Shown: in pieces, positions 19,810-41,703 of the stretch
Layout: each line of letters opens with the position of its first letter
How positions within the stretch are numbered: position 1 is the first letter of the stretch
Assembly (NCBI GenBank): GCA_027531565.1
Contig: JAPZSB010000010.1
Span: 124,001 to 188,000 of the forward strand
Direction: 5' to 3'
DNA length: 64,000 nucleotides
DNA from: Beijerinckiaceae bacterium
Lineage (GTDB): Bacteria > Pseudomonadota > Alphaproteobacteria > Rhizobiales > Beijerinckiaceae
Program-made: the position numbers and the translations under genes
Notes under the pieces: model-generated
Told to the model about the DNA's origin: nothing
Databases searched by the model: none
The model's input: only the letters and a program-made list of their open reading frames with translations

Positions 19810-20784
19810 ATGGCCAAGGTAGTACGCGTGGCCGCCCATGGCGGACCGGAGGTTCTGACGCTCGAAGATGTCGCAGTGCCCGCGCCGGGCGCCGGCGAGG
19901 TGACGATCGAGCAGAAGGCGATCGGCCTCAACTATATCGACACGTATTTCCGCACCGGGCTTTATCCGGCGCCGTCCATGCCCTTCACGCCGGGCAACGA
20001 GGGGGCGGGCATCGTCAAGGCGGTGGGCAGCGGCGTGACCGGGCTCAAGGCGGGCGACCGGGTCGCCTATGTCGGCACGCTCGGCGCCTATGCGGAGATC
20101 CGCAACATTCCCGCCGGTGCGCTGGTGAAGATCCCGGCCAGGGTGAGTTTCGAGACCGCCGCCGCGATGATGCTGAAGGGCCTGACCGCGGAATATCTGC
20201 TGTTCCGCACCTTTAAGGTGAAGAAGGGCCATACCGTGCTGATCCATGCCGCCGCCGGCGGCACCGGCACCTTGCTGGTGCAATGGGCGAAAGCTCTGGG
20301 TGCAACGGTTATCGGCACGGTCGGCTCGCCGGACAAGGCGAAGCTCGCCAAGAAATACGGCGCGCATCACGTCATCAACTACAATACCGAGGATTTCGCC
20401 GCCCGGGTGAAGGAGATCACCAAGGGCGGGCTCTGCGATGTCGTCTATGACGGTGTCGGCAAGGCAACATTCCCGGCTTCGCTCGACTGCCTCAAGCCGT
20501 TCGGCACCTTCGTCAGCTTCGGCAGCGCGTCGGGCCCGGTCGAAGCCTTCGATATCGGCATCCTCGCCAAGAAGGGCAGCCTCTATGCGACGCGGCCGAC
20601 GCTCTTCACCCATATCGGCAACCCGCAGACCTATGCCGCCATGGCGCGGCGGCTGTTCGGTGCGGTGGCGAAGGGCACGCTGACGGTGCCGATCGACCAG
20701 CGCTTCCCGCTGGCGAAGGTCGCCGATGCGCATCGGGCGCTCGAGGGCCGCAAGACCACCGGCTCGACCGTGCTTGTCCCCTGA
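19810..20784 (+). CDS. qor: NADPH:quinone oxidoreductase (zinc-free MDR family)
   Basis: 324 residues of the QOR branch of medium-chain dehydrogenases, which reduce quinones with NADPH. A GroES-like N-terminal part has GLNYIDTYFRTGLYP and PGNEGAGIV. The NADPH site is AAAGGTGTLLVQWAK. No catalytic zinc ligands are present, as expected for QOR. ATG 19810 has AGGGATGGAG upstream. The stop overlaps the ATG of the ABC ATPase by one base (TGATG), so it is coupled to the nucleoside transporter operon, an uncommon partner. Confidence 0.92.
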   Translation: MAKVVRVAAHGGPEVLTLEDVAVPAPGAGEVTIEQKAIGLNYIDTYFRTGLYPAPSMPFTPGNEGAGIVKAVGSGVTGLKAGDRVAYVGTLGAYAEIRNIPAGALVKIPARVSFETAAAMMLKGLTAEYLLFRTFKVKKGHTVLIHAAAGGTGTLLVQWAKALGATVIGTVGSPDKAKLAKKYGAHHVINYNTEDFAARVKEITKGGLCDVVYDGVGKATFPASLDCLKPFGTFVSFGSASGPVEAFDIGILAKKGSLYATRPTLFTHIGNPQTYAAMARRLFGAVAKGTLTVPIDQRFPLAKVADAHRALEGRKTTGSTVLVP

Positions 20785-22304
20785 TGGGGCCGGAGCGCAT
20801 CCGCCTTGCCGGGATCACCAAGGCCTTCGGCGCGCTGAAGGCCAATGATCATGTCGATCTCACCCTCCATGCCGGCGAGATCCACGCCCTGCTTGGCGAG
20901 AACGGCGCCGGCAAGTCGACGCTGATGAAGATCCTCTACGGCCTGCTGCGGCCTGATTCCGGCGAGATCCGGATCAACGGGCAGCGCGTGACCCTGCCGT
21001 CGCCCCGGGCTGCGCGGGCACAGGGCATCGGCATGGTGTTCCAGCATTTCTCGCTGTTCGAGGATTTCACGGCGCTGGAGAACATCGCCATCCCGCTCGA
21101 CGGCCGGACCGCCGATGCCACGCTCCGGGCCGAGGTCGAGGCCAAGGCACGGCATTTCGGGCTGGCGATCGCGCTTGACCGGCCGGTCCACACGCTCTCG
21201 GCCGGCGAACGGCAGCGGATCGAGATCCTGCGCGCGCTGATGCAGGAGCCGCAGGTGCTGATCCTCGACGAGCCGACCTCGGTGCTGACGCCGGACGAGG
21301 CGGAGGCCCTGTTCGCGACGCTGGAAACCCTTGCCGCGGAGGGGGCGGGCATCCTCTTCATCAGCCACAAGCTGGAGGAGGTGCGGCGGCTCTGTTCGCG
21401 GGCCACGATCCTCCGCGGTGGCAAGGTCGTGGCTGAAACCGATCCCCGCGCCGTCTCGGCGGCGGACCTGGCGGCGCTGATGGTGGGCGAGGGCGTGCTC
21501 GACCTCCGGCCCGTGGCCGAACATGCCCTCGGCGAGCCCCTGCTGGAGCTGCACGGGCTCTCCGTTGCGACGGAGGGCGTGCACGGCGTGACCCTGCGCG
21601 ACATTGATCTCACGGTCCGCGCCGGCGAGGTTGTCGCCATTGCCGGCGTGGCCGGCAACGGGCAGAGCGAGCTCTATGCCGCGATGTCCGGCGAAGGCGG
21701 GCGGGTTCTCTCCGGCGAGATCCGGATCGCCGGGCAGGACGTGACGCGGCGCGACATCAATGCCCGCCGGATGCTCGGTGCGGCCTTCGTGCCGGAGGCG
21801 CGGCTCGGCCAGGCGACGCTGCCGCAGGGGCCACTCTCGGAGAATGTCATCCTCTCCTGGCATGCCACGGGTTCCCTCGGGCGGTGGCTGCTCGATACGG
21901 TCCGGACCGGCGCCGTCGCGCGGAAGGTGATCGAGCGGTTCGATGTGCGCACGCCGTCGCCCGATCCGCAGGCCGCGCAGCTTTCCGGGGGCAACCTGCA
22001 GAAATACGTGGTCGGCCGCGAAATCGAGCGCCAGCCCCGGCTGATGATCGTCGACCAGCCGAGCTGGGGCGTCGATGCGCGGGCGGCGACGCATATCCGC
22101 CAGACCCTGCTGGACCTTGCTGCCTCCGGCGCGGCGGTGCTGGTGATCTCCCAGGATCTCGACGAGGCCATGGCCATGGCAGACCGGATCGCCGTCATGC
22201 ATGGCGGCCATCTCAGCGCCGCGCGGCCGGTTCCGGCGCTGAGCCGGGCCGAGATCGGGCTGCTGATGGTTCAGGGCGAAAACGCAGCGAGGGGGGCGGC
22301 ATGA
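20784..22304 (+). CDS. Nucleoside/BMP-type ABC importer, double ATPase subunit
   Basis: 506-residue ATPase with two fused nucleotide-binding domains, as in ribose/nucleoside importers. Domain 1 has Walker A GENGAGKST at 38-46, LSAGERQRIEILRAL, and ILDEPTSVLTPDEAE. Domain 2 has a degenerate Walker A (GVAGNGQSEL), LSGGNLQKYVVGRE and VDQPSWGVD. The tandem design with a weak second site is normal for this family. Two permeases and a BMP-type receptor follow with overlapping or close starts, so this is a complete transporter for purine nucleosides or similar compounds. Confidence 0.93.
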   Translation: MGPERIRLAGITKAFGALKANDHVDLTLHAGEIHALLGENGAGKSTLMKILYGLLRPDSGEIRINGQRVTLPSPRAARAQGIGMVFQHFSLFEDFTALENIAIPLDGRTADATLRAEVEAKARHFGLAIALDRPVHTLSAGERQRIEILRALMQEPQVLILDEPTSVLTPDEAEALFATLETLAAEGAGILFISHKLEEVRRLCSRATILRGGKVVAETDPRAVSAADLAALMVGEGVLDLRPVAEHALGEPLLELHGLSVATEGVHGVTLRDIDLTVRAGEVVAIAGVAGNGQSELYAAMSGEGGRVLSGEIRIAGQDVTRRDINARRMLGAAFVPEARLGQATLPQGPLSENVILSWHATGSLGRWLLDTVRTGAVARKVIERFDVRTPSPDPQAAQLSGGNLQKYVVGREIERQPRLMIVDQPSWGVDARAATHIRQTLLDLAASGAAVLVISQDLDEAMAMADRIAVMHGGHLSAARPVPALSRAEIGLLMVQGENAARGAA

Positions 22305-23374
22305 GCTTCAACATCGCCCTCGTGCCGAGGCGGGAGATCTCGCTTGTCCGGCAGATGCTGACGCCTTTTCTCGCGCTGGTCGTGGCGCTGCTGATCGGCG
22401 GGCTCATCGTCTGGCTGATGGGCCGTTCGCCGGTGAAGGCGTTCGATGTCTTCCTGCGTGAGCCGCTGACCGATCCGTGGGCGCTGCAGGAGGTTCTGCT
22501 CAAATCCACCCCGCTGATGCTGATCTCGATCGGGCTGATCTTCTGTTTCCGGGCCAATCGCTGGAATATCGGCGCGGAAGGGCAGTTCCTGCTCGGCGGC
22601 ATTCTCGGCGGGGGCGTCGCCATCGCCACGCACGGAATGGCCGGGCCGTGGATCCTGCCGCTGATGATGCTGGCCGGTGCGCTTGGCGGGATGCTGTACG
22701 CGGCCATTCCGGCCGTCCTCCGCAACCGGTTCGGCATCAGCGAGATCCTGACCAGCCTGATGCTGGTCTATGTGGCGGAGCTGCTGCTCGATTATCTCGT
22801 GCGCGGGCCGTGGCGCGACCCCAAGGGCTTCAATTTCCCGCAGAGCGTGCCGTTCTCCGATGCGGCGCAGCTGCAGCCGCTCTTCGAGGGCGGGCGGCTC
22901 CATGCCGGTTTCGTGCTGGCCTTGCTGGCGGTGCTGGTCGCCATTCTCGTGTTCCGGCGCTCGCTGTTCGGCTTTGCCGTCAAGGCGAGCGGCGAGGCGC
23001 CGCGGGCTGCCAATTTCGCCGGATTCAACGAGATGCGCATCACGCTCGTCGTGTTCCTGATTTCCGGCGCGCTGGCCGGCCTCGCGGGGATGATCGAGGT
23101 TTCGGGGCAGGTCGGCCAGCTCCGGCCCGGCTTCGGGCAGGGGCTCGGCTTCACGGCCATCATTGTCGCCTTTCTTGGGCGGCTCTCGCCCGTCGGCGCG
23201 ATGCTGTCCTCGTTCGTCATTGCGGTGCTGCTGATCGGGGCGGAAAGTGCGCAGGTCTCGCTCAAGCTGCCCTTCGACCTGACCCGCTTCTTCATGGGGA
23301 TGCTGCTGATCACCGTTCTGGCCGGCGAGAGCCTGAACCGCTATCGCCTTGAATTCCGGCGGGAAGCGGCCTGA
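22301..23374 (+). CDS. Nucleoside-type ABC transporter permease 1
   Basis: 357-residue inner-membrane permease of the BPD_transp_2 family, with eight or more hydrophobic segments. FRANRWNIGAEGQFLLGG and NRFGISEILTSLMLVYVAELLLDYLV are the conserved segments of the first permease of BMP/nucleoside systems; IPAVLRNRFG is the likely ATPase contact. It starts at ATG 22301, overlapping the ATPase stop (ATGA). Its stop overlaps the ATG of permease 2 (TGATG). Confidence 0.93.
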   Translation: MSFNIALVPRREISLVRQMLTPFLALVVALLIGGLIVWLMGRSPVKAFDVFLREPLTDPWALQEVLLKSTPLMLISIGLIFCFRANRWNIGAEGQFLLGGILGGGVAIATHGMAGPWILPLMMLAGALGGMLYAAIPAVLRNRFGISEILTSLMLVYVAELLLDYLVRGPWRDPKGFNFPQSVPFSDAAQLQPLFEGGRLHAGFVLALLAVLVAILVFRRSLFGFAVKASGEAPRAANFAGFNEMRITLVVFLISGALAGLAGMIEVSGQVGQLRPGFGQGLGFTAIIVAFLGRLSPVGAMLSSFVIAVLLIGAESAQVSLKLPFDLTRFFMGMLLITVLAGESLNRYRLEFRREAA

Positions 23375-24291
23375 TGGAAATGCTGCCCTTCATCCTCGCG
23401 ACCGTCTTCACCGCCGCGACACCGCTGCTGATCGCGGCGCTGGGCGAGCATGTCACCGAGCGCGCCGGCGTGCTCAATCTCGGCGTCGAGGGCATGATGA
23501 TCGTCGGTGCCGCCACCGGATTCGCGGCGGCGGTGCTGACCGATTCGAGCGTGTTCGGCATTTTCGCCGGCGCGCTGGCGGGGATGGCGCTGTCGGCGGT
23601 CTTCGCCTTGATGGTGCTGGTCTTCGCCACCAACCAGGTGGCGACCGGGCTGGCTTTGACCATCATGGGGCTCGGGCTGGCCGGGCTGATCGGGCAGGGC
23701 TTTGTCGGCCAGCCCCGCGCCGCCCTTCCGCCCGTGCAGATTCCCCTGCTCAGCGAGATTCCCGTTCTCGGCAAGGCCCTCTTCACCGGAGATTTCGTGT
23801 TCTTCCTTTCCCTCGCGCTGATCGGCCTGGTCGCCTGGGGCCTCAACCGGACGCGGTTCGGCCTGCTGCTGCGGGCGGTGGGCGAGAACCACGGCTCGGC
23901 CCATGCCCTTGGCCTGCCGGTGAAACGGATCCGGCTGGTGGCGATCCTGTTCGGCGGGCTGCTGGCGGGCCTCGCCGGGGCCTATCTCTCGCTGATCTAC
24001 ACGCGGTTCTGGTCACCCGGCATGAGCGCGGGGCGGGGCTGGATCGCGCTGGCGCTCGTTGTCTTCGCGGGCGGGCATGTCTGGCGGCTGGTCCTCGGGG
24101 CCTATCTCTTCGGCGGCATCACGGTGGCGCAGCTGCATGCGCAGGCCGGCGCCATTGGCCTGCCGTCGCAATTCCTGTCGGCCCTGCCTTACCTGATGAC
24201 CATCGCTGCGCTACTCTTCCTGTCGATTTCGGGACGCAAGGGGGCCGGCGCGGCAGGATCGCTCGGCCAGCCCTTTGTTCCGGAACGATAG
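23374..24291 (+). CDS. Nucleoside-type ABC transporter permease 2
   Basis: 305-residue second permease of the same family. ERAGVLNLGVEGMMIVGA is the family signature. NQVATGLALTIMGLGLAGLIG and GLLLRAVGENHGSAHALGLPV follow, the latter being the usual cytoplasmic loop facing the ATPase. Together with the preceding permease it forms a heterodimeric channel. A 67-base gap with a strong hairpin separates it from the receptor gene. Confidence 0.93.
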   Translation: MEMLPFILATVFTAATPLLIAALGEHVTERAGVLNLGVEGMMIVGAATGFAAAVLTDSSVFGIFAGALAGMALSAVFALMVLVFATNQVATGLALTIMGLGLAGLIGQGFVGQPRAALPPVQIPLLSEIPVLGKALFTGDFVFFLSLALIGLVAWGLNRTRFGLLLRAVGENHGSAHALGLPVKRIRLVAILFGGLLAGLAGAYLSLIYTRFWSPGMSAGRGWIALALVVFAGGHVWRLVLGAYLFGGITVAQLHAQAGAIGLPSQFLSALPYLMTIAALLFLSISGRKGAGAAGSLGQPFVPER

Positions 24292-24308
24292 ATTGACGCT
24301 CGGCCGCT

Positions 24309-24343
24309 GCGATGCCGGTCGGGCTGCGGATAACCGGCATCGC
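24309..24343 (+). repeat. 11-bp stem-loop between permease and receptor genes
   Basis: Arms GCGATGCCGGT (24309-24319) and ACCGGCATCGC (24333-24343) match perfectly around a 13-base loop, followed by ATTTT. It sits inside the operon, 15 bases before the receptor ATG. Such elements can act as partial terminators or mRNA 3'/5' stabilisers that set different levels of receptor and permease. Confidence 0.6.
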
Positions 24344-24358
24344 ATTTTGGGGGTATTC

Positions 24359-25426
24359 ATGTCGAGAACAGGGGTTCTGGCGGCACTGGCTGTGTCTGTC
24401 GGTTTGGCCGTGCCAGCCAATGCGCAGGAAAAGCTGAAGGTCGGCTTCATCTATGTCGGGCCGGTGGGCGATTTCGGCTGGTCCTATCAGCATGATGAAG
24501 GCCGCAAGGCAATCGAGAAGGCCTTTCCGGGCCGGGTCGAGACCACCTTCATCGAGAGCGTGCCGGAAGCGGACAGCGAGCGCTCGATCGAGCAGCTCGC
24601 CCGGACCGGCCACAAGCTGATCTTCACCACCTCGTTCGGCTATATGGAGCCGACGCTGAAGGTGGCGAAGAAATACCCGAACGTGATGTTCGAGCATGCC
24701 ACCGGCTTCAAACGCGACAAGAACGTCGCGACCTATTCGGCCAAGTTCCATGAGGGCCGCTTCATCATCGGCAAGATTGCCGGCAAGATGACAAAGACCA
24801 ATACGCTTGGTTATGTCGGTGCGATGCCGATCCCGGAAGTGATTGCCGGCATCAACGCTTTCTATCTCGGGGCGAAGTCGGTCAATCCCGACGTGAAGAT
24901 CAAGATCGCCTGGGCGAATGCCTGGTTCGATCCGGGCAAGGAGGGCGATGCTGCCAAGGCGCTGCTCGATCAGGGCGCGGATATCATCACCCAGCATACC
25001 GACAGCCCGGCGCCGCTGCAGCAGGCATCGGCCCGGGGCAAGCTGGCTTTCGGCCAGGCCTCGGACATGACGCGTTTCGCGCCGAACCATATCCTCACCT
25101 CGATCATTGACGATTGGGCGCCGTATTATGTCGAGCGCACCCGGGCCGTGCTGGAAGGCAAGTGGCAGAGCCAGGACGTGTTTGATGGCCTGGCCAAGGG
25201 CAAGGTCAAGATGGGCCCCTATGTGAACATGCCCGACGACGTGAAGAAGCTGGCCGAGGAGACCGAGGCGGCGCTGAAGTCGGGCAAGATCGACGCCTTC
25301 ATGTGCCCGATCGTGGCGCAGGACGGGAAGACGGTCGAATGCAAGGGCGGTGACCGGCTGACCGACGAGCAGGTCGTCGGCATGAATTTCTACGTTCAGG
25401 GGATCGAAGGCACGATCCCGAAATAA
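24359..25426 (+). CDS. BMP family substrate-binding protein (nucleoside receptor)
   Basis: 355-residue periplasmic receptor of the BMP/PnrA type. The signal peptide is MSRTGVLAALAVSVGLAVPANA, cut before QEKLKVGFIY. DFGWSYQHDEGRKAIEKAF is the conserved start of the first lobe. IGKIAGKMTKTNTLGYVGAMPIPEV and ADIITQHTDSPAPLQQA line the ligand cleft. No lipobox Cys is present, so it is soluble in the periplasm rather than a lipoprotein. It is the last gene of the importer operon and is followed by a strong terminator. BMP proteins usually bind purine nucleosides; the exact ligand is inferred. Confidence 0.92.
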   Translation: MSRTGVLAALAVSVGLAVPANAQEKLKVGFIYVGPVGDFGWSYQHDEGRKAIEKAFPGRVETTFIESVPEADSERSIEQLARTGHKLIFTTSFGYMEPTLKVAKKYPNVMFEHATGFKRDKNVATYSAKFHEGRFIIGKIAGKMTKTNTLGYVGAMPIPEVIAGINAFYLGAKSVNPDVKIKIAWANAWFDPGKEGDAAKALLDQGADIITQHTDSPAPLQQASARGKLAFGQASDMTRFAPNHILTSIIDDWAPYYVERTRAVLEGKWQSQDVFDGLAKGKVKMGPYVNMPDDVKKLAEETEAALKSGKIDAFMCPIVAQDGKTVECKGGDRLTDEQVVGMNFYVQGIEGTIPK

Positions 25427-28872: not shown

Positions 28873-29259
28873 TCAGGCGACGGCTGTCACCTCGACCTCG
28901 ACCTTGAATTCTGGTCGCGTGAAGCCGGAGACGATGACAAGCGTCGAAGCATAGGCGTTCCCGCTCACATAGCGGCTTCTGACGGCTCCATAAACGGGAA
29001 AATACGCCCTGTCTGTCACAAAGCCGGTAAACCGGACGACATGCGAGAAATCCATCCCGGCCTCGGCGAGAATGGCCCGGATGTTCTCGAAGCACTGAAC
29101 GGCCTGGGCCTCGGCATCCTCGGGAATCCGGTCGTCAGGCCCCATGCCCAACTGGCCGGAAGCGAACAGCATGCGTCGCGGAGCCTCGACAAGAAGGCCA
29201 TGGCTGTAGCGCGCGAAGGGTTCGCGGATCGCTGCGGGATTGACAGGGATTCGATTCAT
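28873..29259 (-). CDS. RidA/YjgF family protein
   Basis: 128 residues with the RidA fold: [38 protein letters not shown], and the C-terminal [12 protein letters not shown]. RidA proteins hydrolyse reactive enamine/imine intermediates made by PLP enzymes, while several subgroups have other or unknown roles. The conserved catalytic-site Arg of true RidA lies in the segment before the C-terminus; here that segment reads [16 protein letters not shown], so the subgroup is uncertain. It heads the operon with rimO. Confidence 0.82.
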
Positions 29260-29807: not shown

Positions 29808-31136
29808 GTGACGTTTGAATGGCCGCCGAGGGCGGATGAGTTCTGGCTCGACAATCTGTCCTTGCCGGAGTGTCTGGTCCGTGTTGACGGGCTTTCAGGC
29901 CCTGCGCCGGATGACCGGCTGCGCGCCTATGCGCTGCTGATCCGGGCAGGCCGGATCGCACGCCTTGTCAAGGGAAGGGCCCCTGCGGACGGGCTTCTTG
30001 TTGTCGATGCCGGCCGGCGCCTGGCGATGCCGGCCTTCGTCGATGTTCACACCCATCTCGACAAGGGGCACATTGTCAGCCGCGCCCCCAATCCGGATGG
30101 CACGTTCTTCGGGGCGCGGGAAACCGTCGGGCGGGACCGCGAGGCCCGATGGGATGCCGAGGATGTCCGGGCGCGGATGAGTTTCGCACTCCGTGCCGCC
30201 TATGCCCACGGGACCGGGGCAATCCGCACCCATCTCGATTCCATCGGCAAGCAGATCGAAATTTCCTGGCCGGTCTTCGATGAGGTCCGTGCGGAATGGC
30301 GGGGCCGGATTACGCTTCAGGCCGTCTGCCTGATGCCGATCGTGTCGGTCATCGATCTTCCGGATGAATTCGAGGCCGTTCTGCGCCAGATCCGTCGATA
30401 TGGCGGGGTTCTCGGTGCCGTGACCTTCCTGGGAGAGAGACCGGATGCGAAACTGGATGCCGCGCTCGACCGTATGATCGAGGTTGCGAAGGCCGAGGGT
30501 TTCGATCTCGATTTCCACGTCGACGAGAGTGATTCACCCGATGCCCGCAGTCTCGAGCGAATCGCGGATGCCCTGATCCGCCATCGTTTCACCGGCAAGG
30601 CGCTGGCCGGGCATTGCTGCTCACTGGCACTCATGGAGGATGGTGAACGCGCCCGGGTCATCGGCAAGCTGGCGGAAGCGGGGCTGAACGTGGTCTCTCT
30701 GCCGATGTGCAATCTCTACCTGCAGGACAGGCAAACGGGCCGCACGCCGCGCTGGCGCGGCGTGGCTCCCCTGCATGAACTGGATGCGGCCGGAGTTGCC
30801 ACGATGGTTTCCTCCGACAATACGCGGGACCCCTTTTACGCCTATGGTGATCTGGATGCTGTCGAGGTCTTCCGGGAGGCAACGCGGATCCTGCATTTCG
30901 ACCACGCTGCCCGACCCTGGCTCGAGGCGATCACGACGCGGCCAGCCAGCCAGATGCGGCTCGACGGCGCGGGTGTGTTCGCGGAGGGGCAACCGGCCGA
31001 TTTCGTGCTCTTCGAGGCGCGGACGCTCAATGAATGGCTTTGCCGACCGCAAGCCGACAGGCGCGTCATCCGGGGCGGCAAGCTTGTTGCCGAGCGGCCG
31101 CCAGCCTATTCCGACCTTGATTCCCTCTCGGCCTGA
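29808..31136 (+). CDS. Cytosine deaminase-like metal-dependent amidohydrolase
   Basis: 442 residues from GTG 29808. It has the layout of CodA-type enzymes, which hydrolyse C-N bonds of cyclic amides or amidines. The metal site is complete: H81 and H83 (VDVHTHLDKG), H237 followed by E240 (DFHVDES), H269 (LAGHCCSLA) and D337 (VSSDNTRDPFY). These match the HxH, H-E, H and D of E. coli CodA in order. Substrate-pocket residues differ from CodA enough that cytosine should not be assumed. It is followed after 21 bases by an FAD oxidase and a flavodoxin-fold oxidoreductase, and belongs to the 29.8-39.3 kb block. No start codon other than GTG fits the conserved N-terminus. Confidence 0.85.
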   Translation: MTFEWPPRADEFWLDNLSLPECLVRVDGLSGPAPDDRLRAYALLIRAGRIARLVKGRAPADGLLVVDAGRRLAMPAFVDVHTHLDKGHIVSRAPNPDGTFFGARETVGRDREARWDAEDVRARMSFALRAAYAHGTGAIRTHLDSIGKQIEISWPVFDEVRAEWRGRITLQAVCLMPIVSVIDLPDEFEAVLRQIRRYGGVLGAVTFLGERPDAKLDAALDRMIEVAKAEGFDLDFHVDESDSPDARSLERIADALIRHRFTGKALAGHCCSLALMEDGERARVIGKLAEAGLNVVSLPMCNLYLQDRQTGRTPRWRGVAPLHELDAAGVATMVSSDNTRDPFYAYGDLDAVEVFREATRILHFDHAARPWLEAITTRPASQMRLDGAGVFAEGQPADFVLFEARTLNEWLCRPQADRRVIRGGKLVAERPPAYSDLDSLSA

Positions 31137-31157
31137 CAGACCGGCAAAGGACACGCC

Positions 31158-32570
31158 ATGCGTTACGACATCGCCACGCTCAAGACCCGGCTGGGCGGCA
31201 TCCGGTTCGACGAGAACCCGGCTATCCTCAAGCAGAAGAGCCGGGATTTCTACTGGTATTCGCCACCGCTCAAGCGTCAGCTCGATGCGGTGGTCGGGGA
31301 TATCATCGTCCAGCCGGCCAGTGAGGATGAGTTGGTCGCGGTCCTGTCGGAATGCCACCACCTGGGAATTCCGGTCACGCCGCGGGGGACGGGAACGGGC
31401 AATTACGGCCAGGCCATGCCGCTTTCGGGGGGCGTGGTGCTCGATCTCTCGGCGATGAAAGCCGTCAAATCGATTGGGCCGGGGCGGGTGGTCACCGAAC
31501 CGGGGGCCATCCTGTCGGAAATCGACCATGAGACGCGGGCGCGGTCCGGCCAGGAATTGCGGCTGCATCCTTCGACCTACCATACGGCCACCCTTGGCGG
31601 CTTCATCGCCGGTGGCTCGGGCGGAGTGGGCTCGATCCGCTGGGGCGGGCTTCGGGATTACGGCAACATCATCCGCCTCAAGGTCGTGACAATGGAGGAG
31701 AATCCACGGATTCTCGAATTGTCCGGTGATGATCTGCTCAAGGTGGCGCATGCCTATGGCACCAATGGCATCATTACCGAATGCGAGGTTCCGCTGGCCA
31801 CCGCCTATCCGTGGATCGATGTGCTGGTCGGGTTCGATGACCTGCGGCGGGCCACGGAGTTCGCCAACCTGCTGGGCGAGCAGGATGGCCTCCTCCTGAA
31901 GGAACTCGGCGTCGTGGCCGCACCGATCCCGCATGACACGTTCATGCGGCACAGGAAGTTCCTGCCGCGCGAGAAGCATGTGGTCATGGTCATGGTTGCG
32001 GATTTTGCGCTGCAGCCAATGCTGGCCTTCATGCGGCGGTTCAAGGGTGCAGAATTGCTGATGCAATCCGACCTGCTGGGCGAGGACGAGAAGAAAGGCC
32101 TGCCGCCGGTCTTCGAATTGTCCTGGAACCATACCACGCTTCGCGCATTGCGTGTCGACCCGGCCTGGACCTACCTGCAGGTGCTCTACCCCTTCCCGAA
32201 CCAGGTCGAACTGGTCGAAAGGATCCATGCCCGGTTCGGGGACGAGGTGCCCTGCCATCTCGAATTCGTCCGGTTCGACGGCAAGGTGACCTGTTTCGGG
32301 TTGCCCCTTGTCCGGTTCACGACCGAGGAGCGGCTGGAGGAGATCATGGCCATCCACGAGGAAATGGGAGCGCCGATCTTCAATCCGCATCGCTACACGC
32401 TTGAAGAAGGCGGGATGAAGCAGACGGACGAAACCCAGCTTGCCTTCAAGCGCGAGGCGGATCCGCAGGGCCTGCTGAACCCGGGCAAGATGATTGCCTG
32501 GGAAGATCCGAGCTATGACTACAAGAGTGGGAAAACCTTTTTGTTCAAGGGCCTTGAGACTGGAATCTGA
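31158..32570 (+). CDS. FAD-binding oxidase, GlcD/VAO type (copy 1)
   Basis: 470 residues. The PCMH-type FAD domain covers about 45-220: DIIVQPASEDELVAVL, TPRGTGTGNYGQAMPLSGGVV (pyrophosphate loop), LRLHPSTYHTATLGGFIAGGSGG and YGTNGIITECEVPL. The C-terminal part is substrate-binding and ends in the family signature LLNPGKM. Relatives oxidise 2-hydroxyacids, lactones or cyclic compounds. No covalent-FAD His is evident. It is a clear paralogue of the minus-strand gene ending at 34986: SRDF-WYSP, TGNYGQA-PL and AGGSGGVGS are shared. It lies 8 bases before a flavodoxin-fold oxidoreductase. Confidence 0.85.
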   Translation: MRYDIATLKTRLGGIRFDENPAILKQKSRDFYWYSPPLKRQLDAVVGDIIVQPASEDELVAVLSECHHLGIPVTPRGTGTGNYGQAMPLSGGVVLDLSAMKAVKSIGPGRVVTEPGAILSEIDHETRARSGQELRLHPSTYHTATLGGFIAGGSGGVGSIRWGGLRDYGNIIRLKVVTMEENPRILELSGDDLLKVAHAYGTNGIITECEVPLATAYPWIDVLVGFDDLRRATEFANLLGEQDGLLLKELGVVAAPIPHDTFMRHRKFLPREKHVVMVMVADFALQPMLAFMRRFKGAELLMQSDLLGEDEKKGLPPVFELSWNHTTLRALRVDPAWTYLQVLYPFPNQVELVERIHARFGDEVPCHLEFVRFDGKVTCFGLPLVRFTTEERLEEIMAIHEEMGAPIFNPHRYTLEEGGMKQTDETQLAFKREADPQGLLNPGKMIAWEDPSYDYKSGKTFLFKGLETGI

Positions 32571-32578
32571 GGCGGCGC

Positions 32579-33169
32579 ATGAAGATCCTTCTGGTCTATT
32601 GCCATCCTCGGCGCGGCAGCTTCACGGAGGCCGCGCGGGACGCGGCCATCGCGGCGCTGAAAGGGGCAGGCCACGAGATCGACCTGCTCGATCTCTATGC
32701 CGAAGGGTTCAATCCGGTCATGAGCGAGGCCGAGCGTGCCGGCTACCATACGCGTGGCGAGAACCGGCTGCCGGTGGCCGATCATCTCGACCGGGTGAAG
32801 GCGGCGGACGGGCTGGTCTTTGTCTACCCGACCTGGTGGTATGCCCAGCCGGCAATGCTGAAGGGCTGGCTCGAACGGGTGCTGATCCCGCACGAGACGT
32901 TCACCATGCCGGAGGGAAACCAGCCGATCCGCGGCCTGATGCAGAATATCCGGCTGATTGCGGTGGTGACCAGCCTCGGTTCGCCGAAATGGTGGTGGTG
33001 GCTGGTGGGGCGGCCGGGCCAGCGGATCCTTCTCACCGGCATCCGCGTGCTGTGCCATCCGAAATGCCGGACGATCTGGCTGGCCCTGCACCGGATCGAC
33101 GTGGTCGGCGAGGAAGCACGGAGGTCGCATCTGGAGCGGGTGCGGTCGGTGCTGGGCGCGGTCCGTTGA
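32579..33169 (+). CDS. NAD(P)H dehydrogenase (quinone)-like flavodoxin-fold protein (copy 1)
   Basis: 196 residues of the NQO1/MdaB-like family. The N-terminus KILLVYCHPRRGSF binds the FMN/FAD phosphate. VFVYPTWWYAQPAMLKGW is the flavin-contact loop. An unusual WWWW stretch follows at about 138-141, with a hydrophobic C-terminal half. It could reduce quinones or accept electrons in the pathway of the preceding FAD oxidase, which it follows by 8 bases. It has a paralogue on the opposite strand (34402-34989), also beside an FAD oxidase. Confidence 0.82.
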   Translation: MKILLVYCHPRRGSFTEAARDAAIAALKGAGHEIDLLDLYAEGFNPVMSEAERAGYHTRGENRLPVADHLDRVKAADGLVFVYPTWWYAQPAMLKGWLERVLIPHETFTMPEGNQPIRGLMQNIRLIAVVTSLGSPKWWWWLVGRPGQRILLTGIRVLCHPKCRTIWLALHRIDVVGEEARRSHLERVRSVLGAVR

Positions 33170-33196
33170 GCCGGAACGGTTGTCGAGCCTCAGGGC

Positions 33197-33523
33197 TCAG
33201 CGCTTCAGAAAGGGCGTGACCTTGCGTTCCAGCAAGGCAACGAGTTCCGGCTGCATGAACTGGAAGTCATCGGGGATGTCGAGGCAGACGATGCGCTTCC
33301 CCTTGAGATATCGTGCGTATTTCTGCGAAAGCTTCGAGCGATGGCGTTTTTCCATCACGAAGATGATATCGGCCCATTCCACTTGCTCCGCAGAAAGCAC
33401 GATGTCGGCAGTATTCAGCAGACCGGCCGAATCGGTCTCGATGCCGGGCCGGCCCGCAAAGACCTGTTCGGCGGTGGGGCTTCGCAGACGATTGGCGGAA
33501 CACACGAAAAGCAGGTTTGTCAC
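33197..33523 (-). CDS. Small low-molecular-weight tyrosine phosphatase-like protein
   Basis: 108 residues, shorter than ordinary LMW-PTPs. The phosphate loop is intact: C8 and R14 in VCSANRLRSPTAE (CX5R-S). The candidate general acid is D85 in CLDIPDDF. This matches the predicted-phosphatase group related to arsenate-reductase/LMW-PTP folds. It starts with GTG, overlapping the creatininase stop by 4 bases (GTGA), so it is translated with that gene. The link between a phosphatase and a catabolic amidohydrolase is not obvious. Confidence 0.75.
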   Translation of the reverse strand: MTNLLFVCSANRLRSPTAEQVFAGRPGIETDSAGLLNTADIVLSAEQVEWADIIFVMEKRHRSKLSQKYARYLKGKRIVCLDIPDDFQFMQPELVALLERKVTPFLKR

Positions 33524-34323
33524 GCCAGCTGGTCCAACGGAAACCGCGCGACATCCTCCAGCAGCTCGATGAAGCGGGCGACCTGGAAATCGACGGCGCG
33601 GGCGCCTTTTTCGGCCGTGGCGAGATGGGCTTCGCCGGCGACGCCCTCGGGATGGTTATCCTCGGCGATCCAGGCCATCGAGGTGAAGCCGGTGACGCGC
33701 AACTGCTTGTATTCTCTCGCGTATCGGATCGAGTTCGGAACGAAATCCTGTGCCTTGTCCATGCGGACGCGGCTGCCTGCGAAATGCAGCATCACCGAGG
33801 TTTCGAAATCCCCGCCATGAATGCCATAGGCATTCTCGATATCCGAGAACAACCCTTCCGGCACGCCGAGCCGGCGCCAGGCGGTCTGGGCGACCAGCAT
33901 CTGGCAGCGGACGCGTAATTCCCGGGCGACGATGCCCTGGATCTCGACATTGCCACCATGCGAATTCACGATGACCAGCTTGCGGATGCCAGCCCGGGCC
34001 ACGCTTTCGCCGATCTCTGTCCAGGCGCGGATCAGCGTTTCGGCGCTCATGGTGATCGTGCCCGGCGAACGGAGATGTTCGTTGGATTTGCCCACGCACT
34101 GCAGGGGCAGGAACAGGACCGGGAGGTTATCGGGCAGGCGGGCGGCCACCGTGTCGCACATGCCTTGCGCGATCAGGGAATCGGTGCCGACAGAGAGATG
34201 CGGCCCGTGCTGCTCGACGGCCGCGATGGGCAGGACGGCGATGGTGCGCTCCTTGTCGAGCGCTGCAAAATCCCGTGCGGTCAGGTCGAACCAGTGGGTC
34301 TTGCGGGCGGTCGGGGTGTTCAT
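33520..34323 (-). CDS. Creatininase family amidohydrolase
   Basis: 267 residues from ATG 34323 (GAGG lies about 9 bases upstream). Members open cyclic amides, such as creatinine to creatine, or deformylate pathway intermediates, using two metal ions. The ligand set is visible: E37, H39 and D48 (AVEQHGPHLSVGTD), H122 (VNSHGGNVE) and H169 with E174 (GIHGGDFETS). Exact substrate unknown. Fused in expression with the phosphatase-like gene, and 78 bases downstream of the copy-2 oxidase module. Confidence 0.88.
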   Translation of the reverse strand: MNTPTARKTHWFDLTARDFAALDKERTIAVLPIAAVEQHGPHLSVGTDSLIAQGMCDTVAARLPDNLPVLFLPLQCVGKSNEHLRSPGTITMSAETLIRAWTEIGESVARAGIRKLVIVNSHGGNVEIQGIVARELRVRCQMLVAQTAWRRLGVPEGLFSDIENAYGIHGGDFETSVMLHFAGSRVRMDKAQDFVPNSIRYAREYKQLRVTGFTSMAWIAEDNHPEGVAGEAHLATAEKGARAVDFQVARFIELLEDVARFPLDQLA

Positions 34324-34401
34324 GAAAGCCTCACGGACGGAGAAACCGGGATTCGGGAATGAAAATCGGGCAGGACGGTGCCGCACGCAAGGCCGCGTGG
34401 C

Positions 34402-34989
34402 TCAGGAGAGACGGCCGAGTTCTGTCGAGACCCGGGCGATGAAGCCCTTGCGCTGGGCCTCGGTGGCGACATTCATGTGGTAGAGGGCGAGATAGCGGAT
34501 CCGCGCGCGGCGGGAGACGAACCAGCGCAGGTAGCGGGTGATCATCCTGCGCGGCGGATCGCCGACGACAAAGGCACGCCAGCGATCGCGGCCATAGGTG
34601 GAAATGCCGATGACCTGCCGGATATGGCCGAGCATCGGCTTCACATTCGCAGGATCGGACAGGTCGAAGGTGATGCCGGGCGAGAAGAGGCGGTCGAAGA
34701 AGCCCTTGAGCATGGCCGGAAAGCCGAAACACCAGGTCGGGAACTGCACGACCAGCGCCTCGGCGCGGTGCAGACGTTCGACATAGGTCTCGATGCCTTT
34801 CCGGTTGAGCGTCACGTCGTGGTATTCCCGCCGCATCTCGGCAGTGAGGATGGGCTCGAACCCCTCGGCATAGAGGTCGCAGAGATCGACCTCATGCCCG
34901 GCAGCGCGGAGGGCGGCGATCCCGGCATCGCGGATGGCGGCATGGAAGCTTTCGGCCAGCGGATGGCAATAGAGATAGAGAATTCTCAC
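34402..34989 (-). CDS. NAD(P)H dehydrogenase (quinone)-like flavodoxin-fold protein (copy 2)
   Basis: 195 residues, paralogous to the gene at 32579-33169: both have YCHPxxxSF, an AALxxAGHEIDL-type helix and DLYAEGFxP. The flavin loop is VVQFPTWCFGFPAMLKGFFDRL. A basic C-terminal segment follows. The start ATG overlaps the stop of the copy-2 oxidase by 4 bases (ATGA), so both are translationally coupled. Confidence 0.82.
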   Translation of the reverse strand: MRILYLYCHPLAESFHAAIRDAGIAALRAAGHEVDLCDLYAEGFEPILTAEMRREYHDVTLNRKGIETYVERLHRAEALVVQFPTWCFGFPAMLKGFFDRLFSPGITFDLSDPANVKPMLGHIRQVIGISTYGRDRWRAFVVGDPPRRMITRYLRWFVSRRARIRYLALYHMNVATEAQRKGFIARVSTELGRLS

Positions 34990-36374
34990 GCCTTCACCGG
35001 CACATAGGATCGCATCTTGCCCGGATTGAGCAGGCCATAGGGGTCGATCTCGGCCTTGAAGCCAAGCTGATCCGCATCGGCCCGCTTGTGGCGCGAGCCA
35101 TCCTCGAGGGTGACGACATGCGGATTGGCGATCATCACCCCGCAGGCCTCATGCGCGGCGATGATCTCGTAGAGGCGCTCCTTCGTGGTGTAGCGGATGA
35201 CCGGCAGGGCGGAGCAGGTGAGATGGCCACCGAAGCGGATGAATTCGCAATGCGGGATCATCTCTTCCGGGAAAAGAGCCGCCATTTCGAGGATGCTCTC
35301 GACAAAGCGGGCCTGCGGGAAGAGGCATTGCAGGTAGGTGACCGAGCGATCCGCCTTCAGCATCTGCAGCGTGGTGTGGTTCCAGGTGTACTCGTAGAGC
35401 GGGGTGCTGCCCGGCTCCTCGCGCGTGGGGGTTTCAAGCGTGATCGTGCCGCGCGCGCCGACGATGTCGCGGAAGCTCTCGAGCGACGGTTCGGCGATCA
35501 TGCAGGCCATGACCGGCTGGCCCTCCGGACAATGGGGCTTCAGCTGGCCGAAATAATCAGGCAGGGGCCAGGCAATCGGCGAAAGCAGCTTCTTGATGAC
35601 GCCGTCGGCGCGGGCCACGTCCTGGCCGATGGCGAGGAGCGTGGCGTAATCCGGCGCGGCAACGAGCACATCGACCCACGGATAGGCCGGGGCGAGCGGC
35701 ATTTCGAGCGCGGTGATGATGCCGGTCGTGCCGTAGGCCCGGTTGATCTTCTGGGCAGCATCGCCGCGCAACTCGATCACGCGCGGGGTTTCCTCGACCG
35801 TGACGATACGCGCCGCGAGAATGTTGCCGGGTTCGCGCAGGCCACCATAAGTGACCGAGCCGACGCCGCCGGAGCCGCCGGCGACGAAGCCACCGATCGT
35901 CGCGGTGCGCTTGGTCGAGGGATGCATGCGCAATTCCCAGCCCTGCGGGCGCAATTCGGCGTCGAGCTTGCCCATATTCGCGCCGGCCCCGACCCGGATA
36001 TGGCCAGGCCTGACCCATTCGATGGCCGTCAGCGCCTGCATATCCATCAGGACGCCGCGCTGCAGCGGCACGGCCTGGCCGTAATTGCCGGTCGCGCCGG
36101 CGCGCGGCGTGAGCGGGACACGATGCCGGGCACAGGCGGCGGCGACGCGGATCACCTCGGCCTCGGATTTCGGCGTGACAACGATATCGGCGCTCTTGCC
36201 CGTCAGTTCCTCGTTGAGGATGGGCGAATACCAGAAGAAGTCGCGGCTGCGCTTGCGGACCACCTTCTCCTCGGTCTCGACGGCAATGCCGTCGATCTCG
36301 GCGAGGACCGCGAGGATGGCGGACGGAAGGTCGGTTGCGGCCGGTGTTTCGGCCTTGGCGAGAGCGGCTGTCAT
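34986..36374 (-). CDS. FAD-binding oxidase, GlcD/VAO type (copy 2)
   Basis: 462 residues from ATG 36374, with GGGGA about 5 bases upstream on the minus strand. Same domain order as copy 1: ADIVVTPKSEAEVIRVA, TPRAGATGNYGQAVPLQRG, LRMHPSTKRTATIGGFVAGG, YGTTGIITALEMPL, and the terminal LLNPGKM. The N-terminus is about 20 residues longer than in copy 1. It is divergent from the ABC importer genes, so both may share control from the 253-base gap. Substrate unknown; two copies with the same partner suggest two related or successive oxidations. Confidence 0.85.
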   Translation of the reverse strand: MTAALAKAETPAATDLPSAILAVLAEIDGIAVETEEKVVRKRSRDFFWYSPILNEELTGKSADIVVTPKSEAEVIRVAAACARHRVPLTPRAGATGNYGQAVPLQRGVLMDMQALTAIEWVRPGHIRVGAGANMGKLDAELRPQGWELRMHPSTKRTATIGGFVAGGSGGVGSVTYGGLREPGNILAARIVTVEETPRVIELRGDAAQKINRAYGTTGIITALEMPLAPAYPWVDVLVAAPDYATLLAIGQDVARADGVIKKLLSPIAWPLPDYFGQLKPHCPEGQPVMACMIAEPSLESFRDIVGARGTITLETPTREEPGSTPLYEYTWNHTTLQMLKADRSVTYLQCLFPQARFVESILEMAALFPEEMIPHCEFIRFGGHLTCSALPVIRYTTKERLYEIIAAHEACGVMIANPHVVTLEDGSRHKRADADQLGFKAEIDPYGLLNPGKMRSYVPVKA

Positions 36375-36458
36375 GCATGTCCCCGGGGTCTGAATGTGCT
36401 GATACGCTAGCAATCGTCAGACCAGCCTGCAACGCATTGCCGCAGCGGTTGGTGACAA

Positions 36459-36515
36459 GCCAAAATTGGCCTGCCAGCCGCCTAGGCAGCGTGACGGCTT
36501 GGCGGCATAATGCCG
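36459..36515. promoter_or_regulatory. Two palindromes in the oxidase/importer divergent region
   Basis: GCCAA-AA-TTGGC (36459-36470) and CGGCAT-A-ATGCCG (36503-36515) lie 33 bases apart in the 253-base gap between the copy-2 oxidase and the importer receptor. Either may bind a regulator of the block. No regulator gene is found next to it. I saw no thiamine-riboswitch core in the gap. Confidence 0.4.
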
Positions 36516-36627
36516 AAAACGAAGGCAGGTTGCGCATTCGGTATGTCGCGAAGAAACGGCATAGGCGTTGCTTGGTTTCAGGGGAGCGTGCCGAGGGCAC
36601 GGACAAGCACAAGCGGAGGCGAATTCC

Positions 36628-37647
36628 ATGATGTCGAAATTCCGGATCGATCGCAGGGCGGCCCTTGGCCTCATCGGCGGCTCCATGCTGACGCCGGTTG
36701 TCGGCGGGCGCGTGAGTGCCCAGACCCTCGACAAGGTGAGCTACCAGACGAACTGGCGCGCCCAGGCCGAGCATGGTGGCTTTTATTACGCCGTCGCGAA
36801 CGGCATCTACAAGAAATACGGCATCGATGCGGATATCCGCATGGGCGGCCCGCAACAGAACCCGTCGCAGCTGCTGCTCGGCGGGGCGGTCGACATGATC
36901 ATGTCGAATTCCTTCGAGGCGATCCGCTATGTCGAGCAGAAGCTGCCCTTCCTCTGCATCGCGTCGATCTTCCAGAAGGATCCGCAGGTCATCATCTGCC
37001 ATCCGGGGCAGGGCAATGATGATTTCGCCTCGCTGAAGGGCAAGCCGATCCTCGTCGGCGCCGCCGGCCGGACCTCGTACTGGCCGTTCCTTAAGGCGAA
37101 GTTCGGCTATTCCGACGAGCAGATCCGGCCGTACACGTTCAACATGGCGCCGTTCCTGGCTGACAAGAAGGTGTGCCAGCAGGGCTTCCTCTCGTCGGAG
37201 CCGTTTGCGATCCAGAAGGAAGGCGGCGTGACGCCGCTCGTCCATCTCATCGCCGATGCCGGCTTCGCCAATTACAACACGACGATCAACATCTCCGAGA
37301 AGATGGTGAAGGAGAAGAAGGATGTCGTGCAGCGCTTCGTGACCGCGAGCCTCGAGGGCTGGGCGGCCTACATGAAGAACGGCCCGGAAAATGCGGCCGC
37401 CAATGCGCTGATCAAGAAGGACAACCCGGACATGACCGATGACAAGATCGCCTATGCGATCAAGGTCATGACCGAGCGCGGGATCGTGATGTCGGGCGAT
37501 GCGCTGAAGCTCGGCGTCGGCGCGATGACCGATGCCCGCTGGGAGACCTTCTACAAGGACATGAACGGGGCGGGCGTGTTTCCCTCGGGCATCGACTTCA
37601 AGAAGGCCTACAGCCTGGAATTCATCAACAAGGGCGTCGGCGTTTGA
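36628..37647 (+). CDS. NMT1/THI5-like ABC transporter substrate-binding protein
   Basis: 339-residue periplasmic receptor of the NMT1/THI5-like group (nitrate/taurine/pyrimidine-like). The N-terminus contains DRRAALGLIGG followed by a hydrophobic run and a VSAQ cut site; the Arg pair suggests Tat export. VSYQTNWRAQAEHGGFYYAVANGIYKKYGID is the typical first-lobe opening. GCGGAGGCG precedes ATG 36628. It heads an operon with its ATPase and permease. The family covers several substrates; given the neighbours, an N-heterocycle or cyclic amide is plausible but inferred. Confidence 0.88.
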   Translation: MMSKFRIDRRAALGLIGGSMLTPVVGGRVSAQTLDKVSYQTNWRAQAEHGGFYYAVANGIYKKYGIDADIRMGGPQQNPSQLLLGGAVDMIMSNSFEAIRYVEQKLPFLCIASIFQKDPQVIICHPGQGNDDFASLKGKPILVGAAGRTSYWPFLKAKFGYSDEQIRPYTFNMAPFLADKKVCQQGFLSSEPFAIQKEGGVTPLVHLIADAGFANYNTTINISEKMVKEKKDVVQRFVTASLEGWAAYMKNGPENAAANALIKKDNPDMTDDKIAYAIKVMTERGIVMSGDALKLGVGAMTDARWETFYKDMNGAGVFPSGIDFKKAYSLEFINKGVGV

Positions 37648-38462
37648 TCGTATCCGGCGTGACCGAAGCGCCTCCGCAGGGACGGGCGGGCCAACGCCCG
37701 CTCGTCTCGATCCGGCGTCTCTCGAAGAAGTTCTCCAACGGCACGTTGGCCCTGCGGGATGTCGATCTCGACCTGTTTCCGGGCGAGTTCGTCAGCCTGC
37801 TGGGGCCGTCTGGCTGCGGCAAGTCGACCTTGCTCCGGATCATCTCCGACCTGTCCCAGCCGAGTGCCGGGACGATCGAATGGCCGGGGGCGGAGCGGGC
37901 CGATGCCTATGGCAAGGAAGAGCACAGCCTCGGTTTCGTGTTCCAGGAGCCGACGCTCATGCCCTGGGCGCAGACGCTCGACAACGTGACGCTGCCGCTC
38001 CGGCTGAAGCGCATGGCCACCAGCGAGGCGAATGCCCGCGCCGAGGCGATGCTCGCGCTGGTCGGGCTGAGGGGATTCGAGAAAGCCTATCCGCGCGAGC
38101 TTTCGGGCGGGATGAAGATGCGCGTCTCCATCGCCCGCGCGCTGGTGACCGAGCCGAAGGTGCTGCTGATGGACGAGCCCTTCGCGGCGCTCGACGAGAT
38201 CACGCGGCACAAGCTCAATGACGACCTGCTGGCCGTCTGGGAGCGCAACCGCTTCACCGCCGTCTTCGTCACGCATTCGGTGTTCGAGAGCGTCTATCTC
38301 TCGCAGCGCATCGTGGTGATGGCCGCGCGGCCCGGCCGGGTGATGAGCGAACTGCAGGTCGATGCGCCGTTTCCGCGGGACAACCTGTTCCGCACCTCGG
38401 CCGAATATGCCCATCTCTGCCGCCTCGGCTCCGAGGCGCTGAAGGCTGCCATCGAGGCATGA
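37644..38462 (+). CDS. ABC transporter ATP-binding protein (SsuB/TauB/ThiQ-like)
   Basis: 272-residue ATPase. Walker A is GPSGCGKST (54-62), the Q-loop is FVFQEPTLMPW, the signature is LSGGMKMRVSIARAL, Walker B is LLMDEPFAALDE, and the switch His is in FVTHSVFES. The start is TTG at 37644, overlapping the receptor stop by 4 bases. GTG at 37659 is an alternative. It belongs to the same transporter as the flanking genes. Confidence 0.9.
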   Translation: MIVSGVTEAPPQGRAGQRPLVSIRRLSKKFSNGTLALRDVDLDLFPGEFVSLLGPSGCGKSTLLRIISDLSQPSAGTIEWPGAERADAYGKEEHSLGFVFQEPTLMPWAQTLDNVTLPLRLKRMATSEANARAEAMLALVGLRGFEKAYPRELSGGMKMRVSIARALVTEPKVLLMDEPFAALDEITRHKLNDDLLAVWERNRFTAVFVTHSVFESVYLSQRIVVMAARPGRVMSELQVDAPFPRDNLFRTSAEYAHLCRLGSEALKAAIEA

Positions 38463-39346
38463 CGGGAGTTTCCATGAGCGAGCCCAATCCGGCCTCCGCG
38501 CGAGGCACCGACCAGGATGCCGCGCCGGTTTTCGCAGCCGAGGAGCGCGTTCTCGGCATTCCGAAGAGCCGCTGGCCGGGCATCATCGCGCCGCTGGTCA
38601 TGGGGGCGATCTTCCTCGGCCTGTGGGAGGGCATCGTCCGCTATCGCGGCATTCCCGCCTATATCCTGCCGGGGCCGGTGGAGATTCTCAAAACGCTCGG
38701 CACCGACTGGCCGACGCTGTCGATCGCGCTCTGGGTGACCTTGCGGATCACCTTCGCCGCGCTGATCGCGGCCGTCTCGGTCGGCGTCTCGCTGGCCATT
38801 CTCTTCACCCAGTCGAAATGGCTGGAACGGTCGCTGCTGCCCTATGCCGTGATCCTGCAGGTGACGCCGGTCGTCGCCATCGCGCCGCTGATCATCATCT
38901 GGGTGGGGGACGTCAACCTGTCGTTGCTGATCTGTGCCTGGCTGGTGGCGTTCTTCCCGATCCTGTCGAACACGATCCTCGGGCTCAACTCGGCCGACCA
39001 CAATCTCGTGGCGTTGTTCCAGCTCTATGGCGCCAGCCGCTGGCAGACGATGCGCTACCTGCGCCTGCCGGCCTCGCTGCCCTATTTCCTCGGCGGGCTC
39101 AAGATTTCCGGCGGCCTCGCGCTGATCGGTGCCGTGGTGGCGGAATTCGTGGCCGGCACCGGCGGTTCGGCCTCGGGCCTCGCCTACCGGATCCTCGAAA
39201 GCGGCTACCAGCTCAAGATTCCGCGGATGTTTGCCGCCCTGCTCATGATCTCGATCTCCGGCATCGCGATCTTCCTGGCCACCAGCTATCTCTCGCACCG
39301 GTTGCTGCATCGGTGGCATGAAAGCGCGGTCCGCCGCGAAAGCTGA
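38459..39346 (+). CDS. ABC transporter permease (SsuC/TauC-like)
   Basis: 295-residue permease with six hydrophobic segments and a BPD_transp_1 domain. The conserved EAA-type loop facing the ATPase is LFQLYGASRWQTMRYLRLPASLPYFL. The first about 35 residues are hydrophilic. ATG 38459 overlaps the ATPase stop (ATGA). ATG 38474 with GGGAG before it is an equally good start. It completes the NMT1/THI5-like importer. Confidence 0.9.
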   Translation: MTGVSMSEPNPASARGTDQDAAPVFAAEERVLGIPKSRWPGIIAPLVMGAIFLGLWEGIVRYRGIPAYILPGPVEILKTLGTDWPTLSIALWVTLRITFAALIAAVSVGVSLAILFTQSKWLERSLLPYAVILQVTPVVAIAPLIIIWVGDVNLSLLICAWLVAFFPILSNTILGLNSADHNLVALFQLYGASRWQTMRYLRLPASLPYFLGGLKISGGLALIGAVVAEFVAGTGGSASGLAYRILESGYQLKIPRMFAALLMISISGIAIFLATSYLSHRLLHRWHESAVRRES

Positions 39347-41613: not shown

Positions 41614-41703
41614 TGGCGGATGGGGTGAGATTCGAACTCACGGTAGGCTTGCACCTACGGCGGTTTTCAAGACCGCTGCCTTAAACCACTCGGCCACCCA
41701 TCC
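41614..41703 (-). tRNA. tRNA-Ser (anticodon UGA)
   Basis: 90 bases including encoded CCA. The acceptor stem GGATGGG pairs with CCCATCC. The anticodon loop CTTGAAA carries TGA, reading UCA/UCG codons. A long variable arm (GTAGGTGCAAGCCTAC) is typical of class II tRNA-Ser. The T-arm has GTTCGAATC. The discriminator is G. Confidence 0.97.

Follow-up and report, generated by a model that had tools for sequence, protein, structure and literature searches.

We analyzed a 64-kb stretch of DNA from a Beijerinckiaceae bacterium (hereafter the window) and focused on a locus of eleven genes built around a CodA-like aminohydrolase, two flavin oxygenases (oxA and oxB) and two flavodoxin-fold reductases (flvA and flvB). 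The locus appears, with slightly better than even confidence, to be a gene cluster for the catabolism of a pterin-type ring, probably a breakdown product of folate. Open reading frames (ORFs) and domain searches place the eleven genes in four strand groups. The Rid-family gene on the minus strand is divergent from codA-oxA-flvA on the plus strand; a phosphatase-like ORF, a creatininase-family gene, flvB and oxB, all on the minus strand, converge on codA-oxA-flvA; and the genes of an ATP-binding cassette (ABC) importer on the plus strand are divergent from oxB. The genes are as follows.

28873-29259, minus strand: Rid-family (RidA/RutC-like) protein; PF01042, 80.6 bits
29808-31136, plus strand: CodA-like heterocycle aminohydrolase; NCBIfam PRK07583 'cytosine deaminase', 560.7 bits against a cutoff of 403
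31158-32570, plus strand: oxA, VAO/GlcD-fold flavin oxygenase; orthologue of PDB 6v42/6v43, 704 bits
32579-33169, plus strand: flvA, flavodoxin-fold NQO1-like reductase; PF02525, 109.9 bits
33197-33523, minus strand: short low-molecular-weight phosphatase-like ORF; PF01451, 27.1 bits against a cutoff of 23.2
33520-34386 (likelier start ATG 34323), minus strand: creatininase-family metal amidohydrolase; PF02633, 234.5 bits
34402-34989, minus strand: flvB, flavodoxin-fold reductase; PF02525, 94.1 bits
34986-36413 (likelier start ATG 36374), minus strand: oxB, second flavin oxygenase of the same family; 455.5 bits to 6v42
36628-37647 (from the ATG), plus strand: NMT1/THI5-type periplasmic binding protein; PF09084, 86.2 bits against a gathering score of 20.5
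37644-38462, plus strand: ABC importer ATPase; PF00005, 122.2 bits
38459-39346, plus strand: ABC importer permease; PF00528, 97.3 bits

With the start codons used here, 4-bp overlaps join the phosphatase-like ORF to the creatininase-family gene, flvB to oxB, and the importer genes to one another. Gene content and order agree with an earlier reading of the window made from the sequence alone, and every gene listed in that sequence-only reading is present. The nearest named relative is Rhabdaerophilum sp. SD176, whose oxA is 96% identical.

Among solved structures, 6v42 matches oxA best in sequence (66% identity over 460 columns, full length) as well as in fold (template modeling score 0.93); it was released on 2020-12-02 under the title 'Crystal structure of the flavin oxygenase with cofactor bound involved in folate catabolism'. 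The gene for 6v42 (locus L152) lies in the same tree clade as oxA, and a genome of Hoeflea, the genus of locus L088, codes for a protein with 100% identity to 6v42 across 461 compared residues. This exact gene has the same operon partners as oxA, in the order creatininase, Rid // binding protein, ATPase, permease, CodA-like, 6v42, flvB, flvA; the solved enzyme thus belongs to this operon family. Because oxA is an orthologue of an enzyme titled for folate catabolism, a substrate of the pterin type is more probable than an unknown cyclic amide. Going by the title of the PDB entry, oxA would oxygenate a folate-derived substrate, and we consider a pterin or folate, as the class of substrate, somewhat favored by the evidence. 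The sequence-only reading had proposed the uptake and breakdown of an unknown N-heterocycle; the conserved gene set described below upholds this outline, and the orthology to 6v42 refines it toward a pterin-type compound.

Glycolate oxidase GlcD was rejected as an identity for the two oxidases, which score 72.1 and 66.8 bits against a cutoff of 567.9 (TIGR00387). The motifs GDGN and EHGxG, which we take to be the metal motifs of GlcD-type hydroxyacid dehydrogenases, occur in none of 124 ORFs of the family. Its own signatures are TGNYGQA (119/124) and WNHTT (121/124).

We then investigated how widely the gene set is kept. A locus search with both oxidases gave at least 570 relatives, and the best 80 loci were analyzed, a sample biased toward close relatives of oxA because it holds the best 80 of 570; truncated contigs were scored as misses in the counts for each gene. 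A CodA-like gene is present in 79 of the 80 loci and immediately precedes oxA in 78. One or more flavodoxin-fold genes are present in 77, and such a gene immediately follows oxA in 77, with two in tandem in 36 loci and a single one in 36. The binding protein is found in 65 loci, the permease in 64, and an ATPase in 70 if generic ATPases are included, or in 63 at 50% identity or more to that of the window. The creatininase-family gene is present in 54 loci and the Rid gene in 60; the latter lies outside the range covered by the sequence-only reading, which had missed this member of the conserved set. All seven partners occur together in 52 loci. By contrast, 20 control windows of 20 kb from the same order, at hand-chosen positions, gave no CodA-like, flavodoxin, creatininase, Rid or binding-protein match, with an ATPase in 8 and a permease in 1. 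The phosphatase-like ORF, which keeps a CX5R-S motif (CSANRLRS, by eye), stands beside the operon in 2 of the 80 loci (L011 and L012) and is lineage-specific cargo, not part of the core.

In 297 genomes of the order searched with oxB and with the CodA-like protein (E 1e-60, up to five candidates scored per genome), the oxidase was found in 108, the CodA-like protein in 108 and both in 103, which leaves five genomes with the oxidase alone and five with the CodA-like protein alone. Of 112 CodA-like places, 96 have an oxidase no more than 400 bp away (Fisher p 1e-66, uncorrected for kinship). Across a sample of the phylum, the oxidase was found in 32 of 398 genomes at the same E value, with four candidates scored per genome. 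The genome from which the window comes has only distant further CodA-like and creatininase-like genes (28% and 35% identity for the next of each). The block is a conserved catabolic operon and not a chance grouping, the outcome against which the sequence-only reading had wanted its neighborhood checked.

The operon is patchy in the genus and family of the window: matches were found in two genomes (G082 and G658), with none in another genome of the same genus (G287) or in nine others of the same family. Since the distribution is patchy and a tRNA-Ser gene (41614-41703, minus strand) lies about 2.3 kb past the importer, insertion of the operon as an island is possible. Rhizobium accounts for 109 of the 141 plasmid records that carry the oxidase. 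Clusters of flanking ORFs hold mostly the operon genes themselves, antisense shadows and lineage-specific neighbors, and a MarR-like regulator occurs in 29 loci.

To trace the two halves of the locus, we compared the paralogues. The identity between oxA and oxB is 44% over 445 aligned columns, and that between flvA and flvB 37% over 193. Quick trees were built under a plain model, and the one for the oxidases was flagged for long branches. In it, oxA and oxB belong to different clades, each with members from several families. The split between the paralogues flvA and flvB is likewise old, and flvB of the window groups with flvB of oxB-linked loci. A third oxidase clade (oxC) is represented next to the oxA operon in three loci (L064, L142 and L143) and, in one other genus, next to oxB loci.

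Median identities were then taken against 11 oxB-linked loci (seven of them from one genus) and 22 oxA-operon loci, with the number of oxB-linked loci compared given in brackets. The importer of the window resembles that of oxB-linked loci: the binding protein is 76% identical to theirs (10) and 48% to that of oxA-operon loci, the ATPase 73% (11) and 60%, and the permease 75% (10) and 57%. The same holds for flvB, at 63% (7) and 47%, and for oxB, at 66% (11) and 46%. By contrast, oxA is 66% identical to that of oxA-operon loci and 47% to that of oxB-linked loci, and flvA 46% and 37% (7); the RidA-like protein is 55% identical to that of oxA-operon loci (21 compared), and none was found in oxB-linked loci. 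Neither codA (51% against the 22 oxA-operon loci, 48% against the two oxB-linked loci that have it) nor the creatininase-family gene (53% and 49%) is decisive. The locus is a mosaic, and from these identities the window looks like a head-on junction of two paralogous operon types, one contributing oxA, flvA and RidA, and the other oxB, flvB and the importer.

This make-up raises the alternative that the half with oxB, flvB, the creatininase-family gene and the importer is a separate pathway for a different substrate, adjoining the oxA half by position. The separate ancestry of oxB, flvB and the importer favors it, and so do the sampled genomes of one other genus, each of which holds its oxA and oxB modules at different positions. 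However, the two modules are joined as one locus with one importer, as in the window, in L011-L014, L025 and L030; a second oxidase of another clade accompanies the oxA operon in the three oxC loci named above; and an oxA-type gene is likewise present in 15 of the 19 genomes that have a gene of the oxB clade (hand count). We therefore regard two independent pathways as rather unlikely, though the best placed of the alternatives. Locus L030, of the window type, carries an extra CodA-like gene located between flvA and the importer. We read the window as a fusion of two operon types, which would serve one pathway. The 6v42 operon comprises a single oxidase gene and a tandem pair of flavodoxin genes, whereas the window has two oxidases, flavodoxin genes that face each other, and an importer of the oxB type. 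Systems of this kind are already represented by the solved structure 6v42, and the window is a hybrid form with two oxygenases, most likely for pterin-type compounds.

A second alternative keeps the type of pathway and changes the ring: the substrate could be another small N-heterocycle, such as the pyrimidine part of thiamin or a creatinine- or hydantoin-type ring. The evidence for it comes from the hydrolase and the importer. The creatininase-family gene is conserved, as counted above, and genes for urea amidolyase and amidase, together with allophanate hydrolase, are annotated near the oxidase in R. etli (L008). The binding protein, whose ATG at 36628 is preceded by GGAGG, has as its nearest solved relative by sequence ThiY, a thiamin-precursor protein that binds the thiamin pyrimidine, at a weak 43.7 bits. 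However, a search of NCBIfam at E 0.001 gave no family for the binding protein (the presence of thiamin models in that library was not checked), the hydrolase lies far under the creatininase cutoff (91.9 against 235 bits, TIGR04448), and the title of 6v42 names folate. Beyond the one weak match, a ThiY-type route for the thiamin pyrimidine is unsupported, and homarine, considered as a further candidate, found no support in a literature search. Taken together, another heterocycle is unlikely, and somewhat more so than two separate pathways. True creatininase was rejected at the same cutoff: the protein belongs to the PF02633 superfamily and also falls below the cutoffs for MftE and IolN. At its N-terminus (36628-36700), the binding protein carries a sequence that by eye resembles a twin-arginine signal (DRRAALGLIGG), and its export may thus take place in the folded state.

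A true cytosine or pyrimidine utilization cluster is suggested by the CodA-like protein, which exceeds the cutoff of the 'cytosine deaminase' equivalog. The metal ligands H81, H83, H237, E240, H269 and D337 are at least 95% conserved in 92 aligned rows (90 distinct), and we take them to match His61, His63, His214 and His246, Glu217 and Asp313 of E. coli CodA. The predicted fold is nearest to those of 5-methylcytosine deaminase, cytosine deaminase and AtzC, all N-heterocycle aminohydrolases, and the protein shares their metal site. However, the residues that contact cytosine in the E. coli enzyme, Gln156 and Asp314, are not kept. The position of Gln156 is Ile178 in the window and holds Ile in 61, Val in 15 and Leu in 9 of the 92 rows (85/92), with Gln outside the five commonest residues; that of Asp314 is Asn in 91 of 92. 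An arginine, R340, stands three residues past the catalytic aspartate in 89 rows. A true cytosine deaminase was rejected on these grounds, and a cytosine cluster is very improbable. The labels CodA and creatininase given by the sequence-only reading therefore failed their specific tests.

The sequence-only reading had also explained the convergent layout and the homologous pairs by inverted duplication of one oxidase-flavodoxin module, an origin that we reject as next to impossible in view of the tree topology, the flv paralogy, the partly different neighbors and the DNA itself. Forcing oxA and oxB of the window lineage together costs 499.5 log-likelihood units (approximately unbiased test, p 3e-27 under the model used; 63 of 67 rows, with L091, L138, L139 and L157 dropped, and the tested clade fixed after the tree had been seen). 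Across the 22 oxA-operon loci, the best matches to oxA of the window have 55-73% identity and those to oxB 44-49%. The old paralogues flvA and flvB are in many cases tandem neighbors on the same strand, next to only one oxidase (the 36 loci counted above). A DNA-level inverted duplication was not found by a search that misses repeats below about 65% identity; the longest inverted matches, of 57 nt (79%) and 35 nt (80%), both lie within conserved oxidase motifs.

Returning to a pterin-type ring as the substrate, we propose the following route. The ABC importer would take up the compound, and the CodA-like enzyme would hydrolyze the exocyclic amino group off the heterocycle, for example converting pterin to lumazine. 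Classical bacterial pterin degradation (pterin deaminase, isoxanthopterin route) would start with the same deamination. The lumazine-type ring contains a uracil unit. oxA and oxB would then oxygenate and open the ring, flvA and flvB would feed electrons to their flavin, and the creatininase-family hydrolase and the Rid-family protein would hydrolyze the amide and enamine or imine products. The substrate of each step, the order of the steps, the pairing of each flv with an ox protein and the service of both halves to one pathway are what we infer for this route.

We propose flvA as the redox partner of oxA. Both flv proteins are NQO1/KefF-like by their family matches, and four loci of distant operons without a flavodoxin gene at the tree threshold have other redox genes nearby: a PDR/VanB reductase in Pantoea, a flavin adenine dinucleotide-dependent oxidoreductase in Nitratireductor, and 2Fe-2S proteins in Roseateles and Haematobacter. 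This pattern fits a reductase role for flv.

By role, the locus resembles the Rut pathway (RutA-G) for pyrimidines, which comprises a flavin oxygenase, a flavin reductase, an amidohydrolase, a Rid protein and a transporter; the locus adds a deaminase. Isochorismatase-family hydrolases, the family of RutB, are encoded near the oxidase in L008 (R. etli), L128 and L198 (the last two by eye). EncM, a VAO-fold flavoprotein of enterocin biosynthesis with a covalent flavin, is a distant and weak match by sequence (25-27 bits). According to passages of one article, RutA cleaves the uracil amide with flavin and O2 while RutF restores the reduced flavin, and EncM oxygenates via a flavin-N5-oxide, an example of oxygenation by this type of flavoprotein (PMC7662398). 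The locus differs from Rut in that its oxygenase has the VAO/GlcD fold, its reductase the flavodoxin fold and its hydrolase the creatininase family, and its Rid protein is far below the RutC cutoff (31.2 against 169.1 bits) and also below that of RidA (64.2 against 106.25, TIGR00004), although it belongs to PF01042. We put forward tentatively, as less probable than the substrate class itself, a complete importer-coupled pathway that opens a pteridine ring by Rut-like chemistry with this set (VAO-fold oxygenase, flavodoxin-fold reductase, creatininase-family hydrolase, Rid variant and CodA-derived deaminase) and in which oxA and then oxB may act successively on one substrate.

Several observations weigh against the reading of the locus as a pterin cluster. 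The link to folate comes from a single PDB title, and no supporting paper on the operon or on 6v42 was found in the open-access literature. No folate-specific gene, such as one for p-aminobenzoyl-glutamate hydrolase, was recognized among the flanking-ORF clusters (the first 60, judged by eye; most neighbors are unannotated). The nearest solved relative of the binding protein is ThiY, as described above. In all 67 Rid rows, Ser106 occupies the position of the imine-deaminase arginine, which we take to be Arg105 of canonical RidA. In Pseudosulfitobacter, the annotation shows no redox partner beside the oxidase. In 14 of the 80 loci (L015-L024, L029 and L034-L036, of which L024 and L036 are plainly truncated contigs), the 10 kb around the oxidase contain no gene for a binding protein, permease, creatininase or Rid protein; the parts for import and hydrolysis are thus not always linked to it.

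Variants of the gene set were also seen. Locus L205 (genome G250, contig C35) has creatininase-family, Rid, binding-protein, ATPase, permease and codA genes in that order with no oxidase match after codA, and an oxB-type oxidase lies on another contig of that genome. L202 and L203 are a distant variant with Rid, creatininase, CodA-like and oxidase genes, a TfdA-like dioxygenase gene (by eye) and no NMT1-type binding-protein match. Rieske-type oxygenase genes near the operon in L091 (annotated) and L127 (by eye) suggest methylated or ring-hydroxylated substrates in some variants. In the window, a BMP-family ABC importer (an ATPase, two permeases and a binding protein, with families assigned by eye) lies at 20784-25426 on the plus strand, about 3.4 kb from the Rid gene, and may or may not be functionally tied to the locus.

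In the open-access literature we found no description of genes of this breakdown route, and the genes and steps of bacterial folate catabolism are poorly understood, according to part of one article (PMC5082436). For these genes, which are common in rhizobia, the labels cytosine deaminase, glycolate oxidase and creatininase mislead. About one in three sampled genomes of the order has both the oxidase and the deaminase gene, and a conserved nine-gene operon anchored to a crystallized enzyme makes the gap in folate catabolism directly testable.

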